NCBI GenBank assembly: GCA_016786465.1
Contig: JAEUWC010000014.1
Coordinates: 62,001-126,000, forward strand
Origin: Bdellovibrionales bacterium
GTDB lineage: Bacteria > Bdellovibrionota > UBA1018
Reading direction: 5' to 3'
Length of the DNA stretch: 64,000 nucleotides
Shown here: positions 15,538 through 26,468 of the stretch, in pieces
How positions within the stretch are numbered: the stretch's first letter is position 1
Layout of the letters: each line of letters begins with the position of its first letter
Notes under the pieces: model-generated
The model's input: only the letters and a program-made list of their open reading frames with translations
What the model was told of the DNA's origin: nothing
Databases searched by the model: none
Translations under genes and position numbers: made by a program

Positions 15538-16434
15538 TTAGTTTTTGCAGTCTTTTGAACCGAAAACGATCAAGGGGGCACCGGCAAGGATTCCGGTTAG
15601 GCCTGCGCCTAAGTACAGGCCCTGATGGCGACCCAGGGATCTTAGTTCTGCAGATTCGGACTGGGCGATCTTGCTCATCGCCAAATCATATTCGATCTGG
15701 GAAAGGCTAAGGTCCACAGAAAGGGATCCGATCTTTTCTTTGTAGCTTTGAATCGATGACTGCAATTCCTGCAACTGGCTTTGAAAGGATGCAACTTGGG
15801 CCGAATTATAAACACCGCTGTCGATCTTTCTTTGCAGTTCAGTCGCTTGAATCTGTGCTGTACCCAATAGCGCGTTGTAATTGCTTTTTTGAACATCCAA
15901 GGCGCCTTGGTGGTTCAAGAATGCTTGCGTCGTTTGTCCCACTTTGTCTGCGTAATCTTCTTGAACGTGATTCTTGCGGATCTGGTTTCTAAGGCTAATC
16001 AGGGTCAGCACGGCTCCGGCCAAGGCCAATGGAATTCCGACACCCAGTCCAACTGCGCACGAAATCTTAAAGTCAGATCCGCGCCGACTGCCTGATGACG
16101 AAATCTGCGAAAGTACAAAAGAATGGTACGGGGACCCATTTTCCTGGGCCTTCGAACCCAGTTCTATTGCACGCGTGAATAGATGCCTTTCGTCTTCTGA
16201 TGCGTACTGCGAAACAAATGAAATCAGATCGGCTGAAGTCACTTGGGCGTCAGACATCAGGCGCCCCATCAGTTGATAGGCTTCTTCATTGGTCTTGCCA
16301 TCAACCAAAATGGACGCCTTGGCTTGGTTCACGATCTTTTTCACCAAAAGCGCGCCACTGGGTGGCGTCTGCGCATGGGTGATCTGCGATGCGAGAAGAA
16401 CCAATGTGATCCAGAAGCTTTGAGTTTTTGCCAT
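15538..16434 (-). CDS. Envelope coiled-coil paralogue 1 (SCxxGLG family)
   Basis: 298 residues from the ATG at 16434. An upstream in-frame TTG at 16449 lies inside the terminator of the preceding gene and is rejected. Order: signal peptide ending THAQ; helical domain with ILVDGK; motif GSDFKISCAVGLGVGIP leading into a membrane segment; about 110 residues of coiled coil with KIDSGVY at a likely hairpin turn; a second hydrophobic segment (LTGILAGAPLIVFG); and a C-terminal SKDCKN. The same order and motifs occur in the genes at 16492 and 17586. No known family is recognised. Confidence 0.8.
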   Translation of the reverse strand: MAKTQSFWITLVLLASQITHAQTPPSGALLVKKIVNQAKASILVDGKTNEEAYQLMGRLMSDAQVTSADLISFVSQYASEDERHLFTRAIELGSKAQENGSPYHSFVLSQISSSGSRRGSDFKISCAVGLGVGIPLALAGAVLTLISLRNQIRKNHVQEDYADKVGQTTQAFLNHQGALDVQKSNYNALLGTAQIQATELQRKIDSGVYNSAQVASFQSQLQELQSSIQSYKEKIGSLSVDLSLSQIEYDLAMSKIAQSESAELRSLGRHQGLYLGAGLTGILAGAPLIVFGSKDCKN

Positions 16435-16447
16435 TGAAATCCAGGTC

Positions 16448-16478
16448 AAAAAAAAGGCCCCGCCAAAGGCGGGGCCTT
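16448..16478 (-). terminator. Rho-independent terminator after paralogue 2
   Basis: AAGGCCCCGCC (16454-16464), loop AAA, GGCGGGGCCTT (16468-16478). Read on the minus strand it is an 11-bp GC-rich stem followed by eight U residues, a strong terminator just after the gene ending at 16492. It separates that gene from the paralogue at 15538-16434, which must therefore have its own promoter or depend on read-through. Confidence 0.9.
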
Positions 16479-16491
16479 AGGTTTCATTTGA

Positions 16492-17403
16492 TTAACAGTC
16501 GCCTGCCGTTGCGCCCAAGATGATGAATGGGATACCGATCAGGATGGTCGGAACCGCAACGTATGGAAGTACATCGTTTTGCTTCTTGGCGATACGAGCT
16601 TCGCTGACTTCCTTTTGTGAAAGGACGTCCATGGTGTTGTCGTACTGTGCGTTCAGGATCTGAATGGAAGCCGTAGTGCCGCCAGCCAAGTTTTCTTGTG
16701 CAACGATGTCAGAATTCAGCTTTGCGATCTGAGCGTAGAATTCCTGTTCTTCGTTGATTCCGTAGTAGCCGCTTTCGATCTTGCGCTCAAGCTCGGTGAT
16801 GGCTGCTTTGCTAACGGCAATCTTCTGATTCGCGCTAGCCAATTGAACTTCCAAGGTTCCCTTTTTTGAAATGTAGTCAGCAGTCGCATTGTTTCGCTTG
16901 TCGATATAATCAGCTGCGATTTCATCAGGCTTGCTTAGGTTCGCCAAGTAAACGATTCCGGTAATCAATCCAGCCAAGGTCAAAGGAATTCCGATTCCCA
17001 ATCCGGCTCCGCAGGACATGTTGAAGTTCGATCCCTTCTTCATTTCGCGAAGACCGATCTGGTTCAAAACGACTGACGCAGAATCAGGATTCATTCCTTT
17101 GGACTTGTTCAACGCCTGGTTGAAGATCTCGCGTTCTTCAGCAGATCCGTTTTGATTGACGTAAGAAATAATGTCAGTGGTCGTGACGTTTTGTTCGGCC
17201 AACTGCTTCTTCAAAAAATTCTGCGCTTCTAGATCCGATTTGCCTTCGACCAAAACCAAGCTCTTGGTGCTTTTTAGAATCTTCTTCACTTTCGATGCGC
17301 CATTTTCGGCGGGGCCTTGCGATTGTGCAAAAGCGGGGCTTGCGGTTTGAATGATGATGGCTCCAAGAGCCAAGACTGCAGTCAGGCGGTTTAGTTTTTT
17401 CAC
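16492..17403 (-). CDS. Envelope coiled-coil paralogue 2 (SCxxGLG family)
   Basis: 303 residues, GTG start with AAGGAG seven bases upstream. Signal peptide about 1-26 (ending PAFAQ). Helical domain 38-125 with LVLVEGK and TTTDIISYV. Motif GSNFNMSCGAGLGIGIP puts Cys131 just before membrane segment 1 (133-156). Coiled coil is about 160-270 with KIESGYY at a probable turn near 208. Membrane segment 2 is 280-299, and the last residue is Cys303. A periplasmic coiled-coil hairpin between two membrane segments with a possible Cys131-Cys303 pairing is one model. Function unknown. It is divergent from the third paralogue and ends at a strong terminator. Confidence 0.82.
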   Translation of the reverse strand: MKKLNRLTAVLALGAIIIQTASPAFAQSQGPAENGASKVKKILKSTKSLVLVEGKSDLEAQNFLKKQLAEQNVTTTDIISYVNQNGSAEEREIFNQALNKSKGMNPDSASVVLNQIGLREMKKGSNFNMSCGAGLGIGIPLTLAGLITGIVYLANLSKPDEIAADYIDKRNNATADYISKKGTLEVQLASANQKIAVSKAAITELERKIESGYYGINEEQEFYAQIAKLNSDIVAQENLAGGTTASIQILNAQYDNTMDVLSQKEVSEARIAKKQNDVLPYVAVPTILIGIPFIILGATAGDC

Positions 17404-17585
17404 GGGGGGTCTCCTTGTTTCTAAAATTGACTTAATTAGTACACTAATTTGGCTTTATTCAGCAAGTGTTTTATTCTAAAAAGTTATAAGTAATTGAAAA
17501 TAAACAATAAAATAAGATCAAAAAGCAGACCAAAATAGTAAAGATTTAGATGTACTTTTTTCGCAAAATAGGTGAAAAAGGGTCC
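17404..17585. promoter_or_regulatory. AT-rich divergent promoter region of paralogues 2 and 3
   Basis: About 180 bases of clearly AT-rich sequence separate two divergently transcribed paralogues. TTGACT with AT-rich hexamers such as TATAAG lies in the region, but several -35/-10 pairings are possible and I cannot choose one. Its base composition differs sharply from the flanking coding DNA, which suits two divergent promoters. Confidence 0.45.
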
Positions 17586-18461
17586 ATGAAATTTTTCATT
17601 TCTATGCTTTCGTTGATGCAAGTCTTTTCAAATTCGGTGTGGGCAAATGAATCCGGTGCCGATCGCGTCCGAAGCGAAATCAAAAAATTCAGGGCAGCCG
17701 TCTTGGTGGATGGAATTCAAGAAAGCCGCGCGATTGAATCTTTTGCAGACAGTCTTGAAAAGGCGCAGATTACTCCTGCTGACGTGATGGCATTTTTGCG
17801 AAAATACGGAACCCAGGACGAAACGATTCTTTATCATCAGACCCTTGAAACGGCTGCAGCGAATCGACCGGAAATTCTAAGCGAAGTTCTTCAAAGTGCC
17901 ATGCAAACCCAAGGAAAGATGGGTTCGGATTTTCGCGTTTCTTGCGGATTGGGCCTAGGTGTTTCAGTCCCCGTGATTCTTGCGGGACTGACAGCTGGAA
18001 TTGTTTTTGTGTGGAACCTGAACCGCGACCAGAAAATTGAACTGAATTACGCAAGCCGTCTGAGCCGTGCGACTTCGGAATACTATGTCGCCAAGGGGCC
18101 TTTGGAAGTTTCATTGGCCAGCCAAGCGCAGCAGGTTGCGATCAATAAAACGCAAATGTCATTTCTTCAGCAGAAGATCGATTCAGGGATTTATAGCGCT
18201 CAAGAAGTTGAAGCGTTTAATCAGGAAATTTCGATGCTGAAAGTCGCGAATGCTTCGATCCAAAACAGCACTGAAGCGGATACGGCAAAGATTAAGTTCC
18301 TGAATCAAACGTATGATCAGGAAGTCCAAACACTTTTGGGTTCAAAGAACCAACAAATGACCCGTTGGAAAAGTAAACAAACGTTAAGAGCCATCGTATC
18401 CGCGGCGACTTTGGGCGTGGGAATCCCGCTATTTGTCGCGACCGTGCCGAAGTGTAAGTGA
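17586..18461 (+). CDS. Envelope coiled-coil paralogue 3 (SCxxGLG family)
   Basis: 291 residues from the ATG at 17586, chosen because AAAAAGGG precedes it and a signal peptide (MKFFISMLSLMQVFSNSVWA) follows at once. An upstream ATG at 17550 would add 12 residues before that signal. The family order is kept: helical domain with VLVDG and TPADVMAFL; GSDFRVSCGLGLGVSVP before membrane segment 1; coiled coil with KIDSGIY; second hydrophobic stretch with GIPLFVA; C-terminal PKCK. It is encoded divergently from paralogue 2. Possibly it forms hetero-oligomers with the other two (inference). Confidence 0.8.
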   Translation: MKFFISMLSLMQVFSNSVWANESGADRVRSEIKKFRAAVLVDGIQESRAIESFADSLEKAQITPADVMAFLRKYGTQDETILYHQTLETAAANRPEILSEVLQSAMQTQGKMGSDFRVSCGLGLGVSVPVILAGLTAGIVFVWNLNRDQKIELNYASRLSRATSEYYVAKGPLEVSLASQAQQVAINKTQMSFLQQKIDSGIYSAQEVEAFNQEISMLKVANASIQNSTEADTAKIKFLNQTYDQEVQTLLGSKNQQMTRWKSKQTLRAIVSAATLGVGIPLFVATVPKCK

Positions 18462-20687: not shown

Positions 20688-22340
20688 ATGGCAAAGCAGA
20701 AAAAATTCATCTTCGTCACCGGTGGGGTTCTTTCCAGCATTGGAAAAGGAATCAGCGCAGCTTCCATTGGAATGCTGATGGAAGCACGAGGGATCAAGGT
20801 GACGATGATCAAAATGGATCCGTACCTGAACATTGATCCAGGAACCATGAGCCCATTTCAACACGGGGAAGTTTTTGTCTTGGATGACGGCGCCGAAACC
20901 GACTTGGACTTGGGCCATTATTCCCGCTTTGTGAAAGACGCCAAGTTTAGCCGCAAAAACAGTTTCACCGCCGGAAGAATTTACGACACGGTCATTCGCC
21001 GCGAACGCGCGGGCGGGTACCTGGGAAAAACCATTCAGGTCATTCCACACATCACGGATGAAATTAAGGCCCACATCTTTGCTGCCGCAGAAGATTCCGA
21101 TCTGGCGATCGTCGAAGTGGGTGGAACGGTCGGCGACATCGAAGGCTTGCCGTTCTTCGAAGCGATTCGCCAAATGAAGACCCAGGTGGGATCGGAAAAC
21201 TGCGTTTTCGTTCACTTGACCTTGGTCCCTTACATTCCGACCGCAGGTGAACTGAAAACCAAGCCGACCCAGCACAGCGTTAAGGAACTTCGCGAAATCG
21301 GGATTCAGCCGGATGTCCTTTTGTGCCGCAGCGACCGTTCGTTGCCAAAAGACGTGAAAGAAAAAATTGGCCTTTTCTGTAACTTGCCCGGCGACTGCGT
21401 CTTCAGTGCGACGGATGCGAAAAGCATTTATGAAGTCCCGCTTTCGTTCGCGGATGAAGGTTTGGACGAAAAGATCGTCGAAAAATTGAAGATCTGGGGC
21501 GGTCGTCCGGATCTTTCCAAGTGGAAGGCGATGGTCGCCAAGATTACGGATCCAAAGTCCGAAGTTCAAATCGGGATTGTCGGCAAGTACACCGATTGGC
21601 GCGACAGCTACAAGTCGCTGTCTGAAGCCCTGGTTCATGGCGGTGTGGCCAATGATGCTCGGGTCAACATGGTCTACATCGATTCGGAAGCGATCGAAAA
21701 AGGCGGCGAAGAAGGAAAGAAAAACTTCGAACTTTTAAAAACCGTCGACGGGGTTTTGGTTCCAGGCGGTTTCGGTGAACGCGGGGTGGAAGGAAAGATT
21801 CAAGCCATCGAATACGCACGAAAGAATCAGGTTCCATACTTTGGAATCTGCCTAGGAATGCAACTGGCTGTTATCGAGTACGCCAGAAATGTTTGCGGAA
21901 TCAAAAACGCGAATTCAGCGGAATTCAAGCCCGGTAATCCTGATAACGTGATCGACCTGATGGAAAATCAGAAAAATGTCAAAGACATGGGCGGCACGAT
22001 GCGACTGGGTGCCTATAACTGCAAAATCCTGCCGAAGTTTCAAGGCAAGGCGACGGCCGCGTACACCGCGTACGGAAAAGAATCCATTTCAGAACGTCAC
22101 CGCCACCGCTTCGAAGTAGCGAACCCATTTCGCTCCAAGCTTGAAGAAAAAGGTCTTTTGATTTGCGGTCAAACCACGCACCCAGAAAATGGACAGGATC
22201 TAGTCGAAATGGTCGAAATCCCCGGGCATCCTTGGTTCTTGGGGTGTCAGTTCCACCCTGAATTTCTAAGTCGTCCGCTAGCGCCACATCCGCTTTTTGC
22301 GGCGTTTGTGAAAGCATCGCTTGGAAAGGCGAAAGCATGA
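20688..22340 (+). CDS. pyrG: CTP synthase
   Basis: This enzyme makes CTP from UTP, ATP and glutamine. 550 residues, normal length. The N-terminal synthetase domain begins [23 protein letters not shown] and contains [21 protein letters not shown]. The C-terminal class I amidotransferase domain has GICLGMQ with the catalytic Cys and FHPEF with the catalytic His. It sits 6 bases after kdsB and overlaps kdsA by 4 bases, so CTP supply and CMP-KDO synthesis are co-expressed. This arrangement is common in Gram-negative bacteria. Confidence 0.97.
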
Positions 22341-23209
22341 AGTCACCTGATTTTTCAAAAGCACCGATGACCTTGATCGCGGGTCCTTGCGTGATCGAAG
22401 ACGCCGGATTCGTATTGGAAGTCGCGCAAGAATTGAAAAAGCAGCTTACAGGACTTCCAGTAAAGTTCTATTTCAAAGCGTCTTTTGACAAAGCGAACCG
22501 GACTTCCATCGAAGGGTTTCGCGGTCCAGGAATGAAAGATGGCCTGAAGATTTTAGCAGACGTGAAAGCCAAGACGGGGCTTCCGCTATTGACTGACGTT
22601 CACGAAACCGCACAGGTCCAGGCAGTGGCCGACGTTTGCGACTTCATTCAGATTCCGGCGTTTCTTTGCCGCCAAACGGATCTGATTGTCGCTGCTTCTG
22701 AAGCGGCCCTGAAAAATGGCCGTCGTTTGAACATCAAGAAGGGGCAGTTCTTGGCCCCATGGGATGCGGGAAACATCGTCACCAAGGCGCGTGAAGTTCA
22801 GAAAAAACTAGGCGCTTCGCCTGCTAGCGATTGGCTTTGTCTGACCGAACGCGGTGTCGTTCACGGCTACAACACCTTGGTCGTCGATATGATCGGCTTT
22901 CAAGCGATGCAGTCTTTCGGGGTTCCCGTGATTTACGATGCAACCCATTCGATCCAGGTTCCTGGTGCAGCACCGGGTGGGAAAAGCACGGGAGGGAAGC
23001 GCGAATACCTAGAAGTCTTGGCCCGTTCTGCAATGGCAGCCGGTGCAGATGGACTTTTCTTGGAAGCGCACCCACATCCAGAAAAGGCCAAAAGCGATGG
23101 CCCGAATGCCATGTACCTGGAAAAGGTGGGGACCTTTGTCAGTCAGCTTTTGGAAATTCGAAAGCTGGTTGCCGGAATGCCAAAGCTTTTGCCCGAAGCC
23201 CATAGCTAG
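22337..23209 (+). CDS. kdsA: KDO-8-phosphate synthase
   Basis: It condenses phosphoenolpyruvate with arabinose 5-phosphate to KDO-8-phosphate. 290 residues. Signature blocks: [58 protein letters not shown] and [17 protein letters not shown]. The Cys in GPCVIED is present; the corresponding site separates metal-dependent from metal-independent KdsA forms, but I have not settled the class. ATGA overlap with pyrG. It is followed by a weak hairpin and then the repeat lipoprotein before kdsC. Confidence 0.96.
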
Positions 23210-23250
23210 ACTTTGAAGCGATGCGTCAAGAATATGAATCCAGACGGGTT

Positions 23251-23271
23251 CCTGCCAGTCAAAGAGGCAGG
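23251..23271. other. Weak hairpin after kdsA
   Basis: CCTGCC (23251-23256) and GGCAGG (23266-23271) form a 6-bp stem with a 9-base loop about 40 bases after the kdsA stop. No T-run follows, so it is at best a weak terminator or processing site. Confidence 0.3.
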
Positions 23272-23319
23272 GGAAAAGCTCCTTGAATCTATTGATTCTG
23301 CGTGTTAGCCGCATGCGTC

Positions 23320-24375
23320 ATGATGACAAGATGGATGCGTGTTTTTGGGGTCGCGGCTTTGTGTGTCCTTTTGGTCGCTTGTAAGGAAGACCGACCTGCA
23401 CCCAAATTGAAACAACAAGAAGCTTGGGCCGGTGTTCAAGCAAGCCCAACCACAAAGCCTTCCACCTTACCTTCTTCTTGGCCAAAACCTAGCGCAAGTC
23501 CATCGGCAACGGCCACGCCGACTTCAAGTCCAGCGGCTTCACCCACACCCACGGCGTCGCCTTCAACGCTTCCTTCGGTTTCGCCAACCCCAAGTCCGTC
23601 ACCCACGGTCGTAGGACCACCTGAAGCTTACCGCTGCCAACTTGCCCGAACGACTTGCACCAGTGGCACTACCTACGGGTTTTGGTTGATTGAAACTGAC
23701 CCTGCTGCGGCAGCGGGCGCCTGTAGGTTGGAAGCCCAAGTTCGACGTGAAACTTTTTGCCAAGTGAATCCCGCACAACCGATTCCGGGCGCCGCTCCCA
23801 AGGCAATCAACTATGTCTGCGAACTTTCAGAAAGTTGCCGAGACAACCCGAAGGCAGAAAATCGCTACGAAGAAATGGTCACTGCTTCCGATTACCGGGC
23901 GGGTCACGTCGCTTGTATTCAGAAAGCGATTCAGCTGAAGGAAGAATTCTGCCAAATCACGGCAGTGACGGTACCTCCGATTTTGGTCGACGCACCGACT
24001 GGAGTTGAAGCTTTCCGCTGCCAGTTGGCCACTATCGGTTGCCATGATCAGGGTGGCCGATACGGCTATTGGGTCAGTGCAAAAAACAAACGCAAAGCGA
24101 AGCGCGAATGCAAACGCGAGGCCAAGGATCGTGGTGAAAAGCTATGCACTTTGCAGGAAGCCTATCCCCCACAGAAAATGCCTAAGGGAACCCCGAAGGA
24201 ATTCGACTGCGAGATTTCGAAAAAGCATTACACCTGCCGAGACACCTTGGCCGGTTCAACCGGTCGTGATGTGATCGCAGTTGCAAGTTCTGACGTCGGC
24301 GAAGCGCACTTGAAGTGCATGGTCGCCGCGGCGAATGCCAAAGGCGAATTTTGTCGAATGGTCGGCGCAAGGTAG
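23320..24375 (+). CDS. Lipoprotein with four four-cysteine repeats
   Basis: The start is uncertain (ATG at 23320, 23323 or 23335); all give a lipoprotein signal ending LLVAC. After the lipid Cys comes a Ser/Thr/Pro linker of about 80 residues, likely a flexible spacer through peptidoglycan. The rest is four tandem units of roughly 50-60 residues, each with four Cys in similar spacing: they begin YRCQLARTTC, YVCELSESC, FRCQLATIGC and FDCEISKKHYTC and end FCQV, FCQI, LCTL and FCRM. Units 1/3 and 2/4 look most alike, suggesting duplication of a pair. Probable disulfide-stabilised outer-membrane lipoprotein; family not recognised. Confidence 0.8.
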   Translation: MMTRWMRVFGVAALCVLLVACKEDRPAPKLKQQEAWAGVQASPTTKPSTLPSSWPKPSASPSATATPTSSPAASPTPTASPSTLPSVSPTPSPSPTVVGPPEAYRCQLARTTCTSGTTYGFWLIETDPAAAAGACRLEAQVRRETFCQVNPAQPIPGAAPKAINYVCELSESCRDNPKAENRYEEMVTASDYRAGHVACIQKAIQLKEEFCQITAVTVPPILVDAPTGVEAFRCQLATIGCHDQGGRYGYWVSAKNKRKAKRECKREAKDRGEKLCTLQEAYPPQKMPKGTPKEFDCEISKKHYTCRDTLAGSTGRDVIAVASSDVGEAHLKCMVAAANAKGEFCRMVGAR

Positions 24376-24442
24376 TTGATCGGCTGATACTAGGCAAAAT
24401 TTTCAGGCGTGTTGAATCATCCAGGCCAGGTATACTGGAGGG

Positions 24443-24952
24443 ATGCTAGCGAACAAGGACGTTCAGGCCCGGCTAAAAAAGATCAAACTATTGATTCTAG
24501 ATGTCGACGGAATCATGACCGACGGGCGTGTTTTTTGGCTAGAAGGCCACGGGTGGACCCGGCACTTCCACGTTCATGACGGATACGGGCTAAAGATTCT
24601 GATGAAAGCCGGAATCCAAGTCGCAGTGATCAGCGGCGGGGATTCAAAAGACGTTCGCACCCGGATGGAATTTCTGAAAATTCAGCATGTGTTCTTGGGC
24701 GACGAAGACAAGATCAAAGCGCTGGACAAGATTCAAGCGGCTACCGGGCTGAAGTATGAAGAAATGGCGTTTATGGGGGATGATCTTTTCGACATACCCG
24801 TGATCGATCGGGTCGGATTTGCCGCAACCGTCCCCCAAGCGGTTCCGCCTGTGAAAGAAAAAGTCCATTACATCACGGAATCTAGCGGTGGTTGGGGCGC
24901 CGTCCGAGAAGTCGCCGATGCCATTCGAAAATCGCAAGGACTAGGACCCTAA
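24443..24952 (+). CDS. kdsC: KDO-8-phosphate phosphatase (HAD family)
   Basis: It removes phosphate from KDO-8-phosphate. 169 residues, the typical length of this small tetrameric HAD enzyme without a cap. The catalytic DVDGIMTDG motif lies near residue 18-26, with QVAVISGGDSKDV as the second motif and FMGDDLFDIPVID as the metal-binding fourth motif. Start ATG follows GGAGG. Together with kdsB and kdsA it completes the KDO steps from arabinose 5-phosphate to CMP-KDO; the isomerase KdsD is not in this window. Confidence 0.93.
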   Translation: MLANKDVQARLKKIKLLILDVDGIMTDGRVFWLEGHGWTRHFHVHDGYGLKILMKAGIQVAVISGGDSKDVRTRMEFLKIQHVFLGDEDKIKALDKIQAATGLKYEEMAFMGDDLFDIPVIDRVGFAATVPQAVPPVKEKVHYITESSGGWGAVREVADAIRKSQGLGP

Positions 24953-24955
24953 ATC

Positions 24956-25756
24956 ATGAAGAAAAATACGATCGGCATCGTGGGGCTTGGGCAGATGGGC
25001 GAAGCAATCGCCCTGGGTCTACGAGAAACGCATTCGATTTCCGCGACTACTAAATCCAAGGAATCGGCTGCAGCAGCGAAGAAAGATCTGAAGATCAATT
25101 GTCACAACGACAACGTGAAGCTGGCCAAAGAATGCGATGTTCTGGTTCTTTGCGTAAAGCCACACCAAGCGCAGTCAGTTTTAGAAGAAATGCGATCGGC
25201 ACTGAATTCAAAGCACCTGGTTATTTCCATTGCAGCCGGAATCACCACCGAACAGATTCGTAAGTGGACCGGGGGCAAGCCCAGTGTGGTGCGCGCGATG
25301 CCGAATACTCCGTGTCTGATTGGCGATGGGATGACCGCCTATTGCGGAGCTTCGGGACAGACTTCGGAAGACGATTTGGCGATCGCCGGTAAAATTTTCG
25401 GTTCGATCGGGCAGGCCGTTCGTGTTGAAGAAGAACAGATGGACGGGGTCACGGGCCTAAGTGGATGTGGCCCAGCGTATGTGTATCTGATGATTGAATC
25501 TTTAAGTGAAGCCGGTGTGAAAGTCGGTCTGCCGCGAAAGGTTGCGACACTTCTGGCGGCTCAGACTTTGATGGGTGCTTCGAAAATGGTTTTGGAACGA
25601 GGCGAACATCCTGCCGCTTTGAAGGACGAAGTGACGACGCCAGCTGGATGCACGATTGATGGTTTGATGGCCCTTGAAGAGGGCAAGCTTCGTGTGACTT
25701 TGATCAAAGCCGTGCTGGCCGCGACCGAAAGAAGTCGCGGCCTGCGCGGCAAATGA
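24956..25756 (+). CDS. proC: Pyrroline-5-carboxylate reductase
   Basis: It performs the last step of proline synthesis using NAD(P)H. 266 residues, normal. N-terminal Rossmann motif GIVGLGQMGEAIALGL, then VLCVKPHQ, VRAMPNTP, and the C-terminal signature with LSGCGPAYVYLMIESL and LKDEVTTPAGCTIDGL. It begins 3 bases after the kdsC stop, so it is co-transcribed. It ends just before the tandem hairpins at 25765. Confidence 0.95.
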   Translation: MKKNTIGIVGLGQMGEAIALGLRETHSISATTKSKESAAAAKKDLKINCHNDNVKLAKECDVLVLCVKPHQAQSVLEEMRSALNSKHLVISIAAGITTEQIRKWTGGKPSVVRAMPNTPCLIGDGMTAYCGASGQTSEDDLAIAGKIFGSIGQAVRVEEEQMDGVTGLSGCGPAYVYLMIESLSEAGVKVGLPRKVATLLAAQTLMGASKMVLERGEHPAALKDEVTTPAGCTIDGLMALEEGKLRVTLIKAVLAATERSRGLRGK

Positions 25757-25764
25757 TTGGCTTA

Positions 25765-25875
25765 GCGAGCCGAAATGCGCTCGCCCTAGAGCATGTCCCG
25801 GGCGAGCCGAAATGCGCTCGCCCTAGAGCATATCCCGGGCGAGCCGAAATGCGCTCGCCCTAGAGCATGTAATGT
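25765..25875. repeat. Three tandem 37-bp hairpin units
   Basis: Units begin at 25765, 25802 and 25839, exactly 37 bases apart and nearly identical. The second and third contain GGGCGAGC, 8 bases, GCTCGCCC, an 8-bp GC stem; the first has a shortened left arm. They lie between convergent genes proC and the 25860 gene. The third unit covers the last codons and stop of the latter. They probably arose by tandem duplication of the 25860 gene's stop and terminator, and can terminate transcription from both sides. Confidence 0.85.
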
Positions 25876-26468
25876 ATGCTGAGTCCGCCTAGATTCGAGT
25901 AAGGCGTAATTCCGAAATCGACGCTTCCGCCGATGATGGCCAGAACCAAGCCGGTGTCGAAAGAAAATAGAATTTTATCCATTCCCGGAACCGTGAAGTG
26001 AAAGCCTGCGTTAGGAAGGATGTTCACTCCGAAAGAAGTTCCCGATCCCACGTTCGCGCCGCTGATGGCTGCGTTGATTGCGCCACCGATATTGTTTCCG
26101 GCTGAAATCGTTCCCAAGGATAAGCCGCCGCCGACGTGAACGCCGGTGTTGCGATTACCCGTGATGTTCATTTTGTAAATGCCGCCAGCGGTGAATGTGA
26201 AAGGGCTGACACCGTGAATGGCAAAAAGTACTTGGATCGCCGATTTGTCATTCAATTCAAATAGCGCGCTGACAGCGCGGCCGGTGCCACTGTTCTGGGA
26301 ATCCATGGTCGAAAAACCCAAGCCAATGTCGGTGGGTCCCGACGCTGAAGATGACTTGAAAGTCGTCGCAGCGGATTCAGTAGTTTCAGCTTTTTTTTCT
26401 TTCTTGGCAGCGAACGCGGAAGCGCTCACGGCCATGGCCAAGGAAACAACAAGGATGATTTTTTTCAT
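25860..26468 (-). CDS. Small exported protein, probable outer-membrane barrel
   Basis: I start at the ATG at 26468, which opens a clean signal peptide (MKKIILVVSLAMAVSASAFA); a longer in-frame start adds 14 residues without purpose. The 202-residue precursor has a charged Lys/Glu stretch after cleavage, then Gly-rich alternating strands (IGLGFSTMDSQNSGTGRAV, VHVGGGLSLGTI) as in small eight-stranded barrels. The C-terminal motif is SIHYML rather than a final aromatic. Its last codons fall inside the third 37-bp repeat unit. Function unknown. Confidence 0.65.
   Translation of the reverse strand: MKKIILVVSLAMAVSASAFAAKKEKKAETTESAATTFKSSSASGPTDIGLGFSTMDSQNSGTGRAVSALFELNDKSAIQVLFAIHGVSPFTFTAGGIYKMNITGNRNTGVHVGGGLSLGTISAGNNIGGAINAAISGANVGSGTSFGVNILPNAGFHFTVPGMDKILFSFDTGLVLAIIGGSVDFGITPYSNLGGLSIHYML

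Follow-up and report, generated by a model that had tools for sequence, protein, structure and literature searches.

What is a gene for a lipoprotein with four cysteine-rich units doing between kdsA and kdsC, and does its position say anything about what it does? The locus lies in a 64,000-nucleotide stretch (here called the window) of contig JAEUWC010000014.1, from a Bdellovibrionales bacterium genome of 3.63 Mb in 30 contigs. A first-pass annotation of the window had described a lipoprotein signal, a Ser/Thr/Pro linker and four tandem four-Cys units “inside the KDO operon,” and had taken the placement as a tie to lipopolysaccharide synthesis. The coordinates of the gene, its parts and its two neighbors are collected in Table 1.

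Table 1. Positions in the window of the Cys-unit gene, its parts and the flanking KDO genes.
Feature	Coordinates	Strand	Basis
kdsA, upstream neighbor	22337..23209	+	TIGR01362, above cut-off
Whole ORF (351 aa): lipoprotein with four units of 4 Cys each	23320..24375	+	ORF translation, stop at end
Signal peptide with lipobox LLVAC ending in Cys21 (codon at 23380-23382)	23320..23382	+	Read in translation
Ser/Thr/Pro/Ala linker, residues 40-102	23437..23625	+	Composition count
Unit A1, YRCQ..C..YGFW..C..C	23629..23769	+	Unit alignment, profile; predicted beta-beta-alpha-beta
Unit B1, YVCE..CRD..C..FC	23812..23961	+	Unit alignment, profile; predicted beta-beta-alpha-beta
Unit A2	24013..24156	+	Unit alignment, profile; low-confidence model
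Unit B2	24202..24363	+	Unit alignment, profile; low-confidence model
kdsC, downstream neighbor	24443..24952	+	TIGR01670, above cut-off

On translation the ORF proves to have been placed correctly from the start, with no internal stop. There are three in-frame candidate starts (GTG 23302, ATG 23320 and ATG 23335): with the Met at 23335 the lipoprotein signal would be shorter and of typical form, and the GTG is open too, so the start codon is uncertain. The translated N-terminus, MRVFGVAALCVLLVAC, has the basic n-region, hydrophobic stretch and N-terminal lipobox with final Cys of a lipoprotein signal, as the first-pass annotation had proposed, and the residue following the lipobox Cys is Lys. 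Under the sorting rule known from E. coli, Lys after the lipidated Cys directs a lipoprotein to the outer membrane; the phylum here is a different one. The linker is also as described, with S, T, P or A at 52 of its 63 positions. S/T/P linkers of like composition are found on other proteins encoded in the genome (L003, L004, L005, L006 and L007), some of which (L003, L005 and L007) resemble the Cys-unit protein in joining the linker to a lipoprotein-like signal start; their bodies are unrelated to it, and in these last three are large. By eye, L003 and L007 are similar to each other. Such linkers recur across this genome, and having one implies nothing specific about the Cys-unit protein.

The 16 Cys that lie C-terminal to the linker fall, within 248 residues, into four groups of four, with gaps of 7-22-12 in A1, 6-26-12 in B1, 7-23-12 in A2 and 9-27-12 in B2. 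In 200,000 trials with 16 Cys placed at random over 248 positions, none came out equally regular, and the similar spacing noticed at first reading is thus real. The similarity of the units also extends beyond their Cys. With Cys held fixed and the remaining residues shuffled (1,000 shuffles per unit pair), A1 and A2 (17 of 47 residues identical) gave a z of 6.8 and B1 and B2 (17 of 50) a z of 6.2, no shuffle being as good in either case; the four A/B cross pairs within the protein were weaker (z 4.5, 2.1, 3.8 and 2.3, with 0 to 28 of the 1,000 shuffles as good), so that the duplicated block is A-B, in agreement with the A-B-A-B order and “duplication of a pair” of the first-pass annotation. 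At the DNA level, the 25-base stretch opening A1 and A2 is 84% identical between them. Profiles of the A and B families, of four rows each, matched one another over 38 columns with a probability of 90.5 (hhalign), and the two kinds of unit probably share a common origin, the sequences suggesting a history that ran from single unit to A-B to A-B-A-B.

Is this a known domain? Pfam returned no family for the whole protein and, for the repeat part, at best LLPH (14.4 bits, below its cut-off of 25.7); the best NCBIfam score was 11.5 against a cut-off of 180, and PHROGs and PDB sequences gave no match, so that in these four collections no known Cys-rich family accounts for the units. The single PADLOC match (E 0.012) covers the signal and linker region. 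Among the paper titles listed, none concerned the A-B module. Elsewhere in the window, three consecutive proteins of 303 aa (15538-16449 and 16492-17403 on the minus strand, 17550-18461 on the plus strand), mutually similar by eye, are also without a Pfam match.

Within its own phylum the module is nearly as hard to find. As a single-protein query, the repeat region had a match in the source genome only, among 35 genomes of the family: a paralogous 186-aa lipoprotein (L002:1432-1992; E 9.3e-7 for the repeat region, falling to 1.9e-12 when the whole protein is the query). This paralogue shares with the main protein the lipobox, the linker, the sequence of A then B and the order of the Cys, and differs in having one pair rather than two, a shorter linker and another locus, where it stands alone on its strand between a gene for a 1,509-aa lipoprotein-like protein and what is presumably ligA. 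A three-row A-B profile added one further genome (G050) among 55 of the order, and widening the search to 58 genomes of the class changed nothing. The E-value of that match, 0.0015 per genome, amounts over 55 to 58 genomes to about 0.08 expected by chance; the pair was accepted for its eight-Cys A-B order, beyond its E-value. G050 belongs to another family of the order, and its single A-B pair (L015), with all eight Cys in an order identical to that of the main protein, ends a stop-free frame of 507 residues. Unlike the main protein, the G050 ORF has an ordinary signal peptide upstream with no lipobox, several hundred extra residues, and a stop in frame behind its signal-peptide portion: at about 7300-5590 of L138 (minus strand) the ORF with the signal peptide ends at a TGA, and the frame then continues open to the A-B pair. 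The gene may be broken, the stop may be recoded, or the assembly may be in error.

Alignment of the four A-B pairs leaves eight Cys and two Ala as invariant columns. A profile of these four rows matched in 5 of 368 genomes of the phylum at E ≤ 0.05. Matches in L016, L017 and L018 (E 6e-4 to 0.05) were rejected as due to chance, the first being a short Cys-rich protein of cytoplasmic type with another Cys pattern and the other two having stops within the matching frames; L008 (E 0.03) was dropped after inspection of its sequence. A single-unit profile run over the 368 genomes matched in the source genome and G050 only. The named genomes had no match to the module, no homologues were found in phages, plasmids and viral contigs, and the module was not found in 17 genomes reached via loci of other groups. 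Judged by these searches, the module is lineage-restricted and rare.

What might four Cys per unit be for? The genome has three DsbA-family matches: a fusion of VKOR and a DsbA-like thioredoxin domain carrying CPYC (L141), a lipoprotein-like DsbA with CPYC (L140), and the best-scoring match (L139), which has no obvious signal peptide in frame and may be cytoplasmic. Given the VKOR-DsbA fusion and the Dsb domains encoded in the genome, disulfide formation in the envelope is plausible, as are disulfides in the Cys units themselves. The epithet “disulfide-rich” of the first-pass annotation thus gains indirect support, from the constancy of the Cys across the four pairs and from the VKOR-DsbA and DsbA genes, for bonds that are predicted ones. 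Four Cys per unit is also the stoichiometry of zinc or iron-sulfur sites, and the units might instead bind a metal or cluster; for an exported protein, in a genome with Dsb machinery, and with the modeled Cys on strand 1, the following loop, the helix and strand 3 rather than in knuckle pairs, this is highly doubtful.

The models in question, both built with AlphaFold on two-row alignments (A1B1 plus A2B2, and the reverse), have beta-beta-alpha-beta twice in A1B1 (pLDDT 81, pTM 0.59, with the five models at 53 to 81) and, in A2B2 (pLDDT 59), the same element order with one more strand in B2. A beta-beta-alpha-beta fold for each unit is, on these models, likely but not firm. Foldseek found no match at E 0.001 in two libraries, its best E being 0.09. 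Comparisons with VIA-align, confined to structures from Foldseek's match list, gave Z up to 7.0 (103 residues, rmsd 4.8) against eukaryotic ribosomal large-subunit chains, presumably eL20/L18a, and 6.8 (48 residues, rmsd 1.8) against phage T7 Gp2 (4lk0_M); the top Z of 7.0 is within the tool's range for a common arrangement. One proposal on which these searches bear is that of a periplasmic inhibitor or protective lipoprotein, whose disulfide-rich module would block a hydrolase of the cell's own or of foreign origin. Lysozyme-inhibitor lipoproteins are known (MliC/PliC), small duplicated domains of disulfide type on a lipid anchor would fit such a role, and the Bdellovibrionota include predators that release envelope hydrolases; with no inhibitor family, by sequence or by fold, among the matches listed, the proposal is unlikely.

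There remains the seat of the gene. It does lie between kdsA and kdsC, on one strand with both, 110 bases after the former and 67 before the latter, but “operon” is a loose term for a gene order of kdsB-pyrG-kdsA-[Cys-unit gene]-kdsC-proC, all on the plus strand. On that strand, a consensus scan of 22200-25900 found neither a promoter-like nor a terminator-like site. These features, the same-strand seat at short distances and the run free of terminator-like sites, are what would be expected if position reflected function and the lipoprotein helped to make, move or sense KDO-lipid A. Do related genomes bear this out? kdsA is present in 34 of the 35 family genomes, the source genome included, and its surroundings were compared in 29 loci from whole genomes (L020-L048) and 31 named loci from another collection (L049-L078 and L080; L079 and L081-L128 were left out), two sets that overlap and are largely of the same organisms. 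The closest named KdsA proteins come from MAGs titled Bdellovibrio, Bdellovibrionales, Oligoflexia and Bacteriovoracaceae. kdsC directly follows kdsA on the same strand, 8 to 124 bases away, in 17 of the 29 and 24 of the 31 loci; in three of the 29 it is on the other side of kdsA and on the opposite strand, and in 9 of the 29 and 7 of the 31 (two of these ending at a contig edge) it was undetected. The Cys-unit gene is in none of the 60 loci (tblastn at 1e-4), matching only the window's own copy (L019). The placement is thus not conserved in these loci, and the paralogue has no KDO genes beside it: the proposed tie to lipopolysaccharide synthesis is supported on neither count, and a KDO-related role, very unlikely with the seat empty in relatives, was rejected as the main reading. 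A position within a conserved sugar-synthesis cluster can, as here, be accidental.

How the gene came to be there is a separate matter. Base composition gives no support to a recent foreign origin: the repeat part has a G+C of 0.542 (0.548 at third positions), much like its neighbors, so that an insertion, if there was one, would be old. No flanking repeats of a mobile element were recognized within 22300-26100, where the longest repeat families are the gene's own 25-base repeat and a 37-base tandem after proC. The 37-base unit occurs three times just after proC (25765-25875), with 89-100% identity.

What the gene encodes is an ordinary tethered lipoprotein with a rare, unnamed module of disulfide type. 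Beyond the signal, linker, repeats, paralogue and neighborhood, all of which are established computationally, the preferred reading, to which we give a probability of roughly 0.6, is that of a lineage-restricted, tethered, disulfide-stabilized envelope module with a binding or structural role and without a special KDO tie. Cys21, once lipidated, would anchor the exported protein in a membrane, the outer one if the Lys that follows is read as in E. coli; the flexible S/T/P/A linker would raise two A-B modules, each of about 115 residues, off that membrane; and each A and B would fold as a small beta-beta-alpha-beta unit, its four Cys paired in two disulfides through the action of the genome's DsbA/VKOR proteins. 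The A-B pair would derive from an older duplication of a single unit, with the pair duplicated again in this gene, which may have arrived or arisen in the kdsA-kdsC gap in this lineage. Its job would most likely be binding, of a partner protein, a glycan or a cell surface, or else structural; adhesion, suggested in the first-pass annotation, is possible on the sequence.

With this protein, the known envelope repertoire of a little-studied, predator-containing phylum gains a small unnamed domain of disulfide type, one whose duplication history, from unit to pair to double pair, is still visible. A bolder version, and a rather improbable one, has the A-B module as an undescribed extracytoplasmic disulfide domain of a few Bdellovibrionota lineages, passed between them, displayed on tethers and recognizing other cells (prey or kin), with duplication of the pair raising avidity. 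The importance of the module would be greater if it did bind prey or kin surfaces.

How does the module compare with known systems? The eL20/L18a chains and Gp2, listed as tandem beta-beta-alpha-beta folds, resemble its predicted structure in the order of secondary-structure elements, but have no sequence relation to it and belong to a different compartment; kinship with either was set aside in favor of a common small fold. A likeness of another sort is with TraA of myxobacteria, reportedly a surface-exported envelope protein with Cys-rich repeats: what the two share is the presence of such repeats on an exported protein of the envelope.
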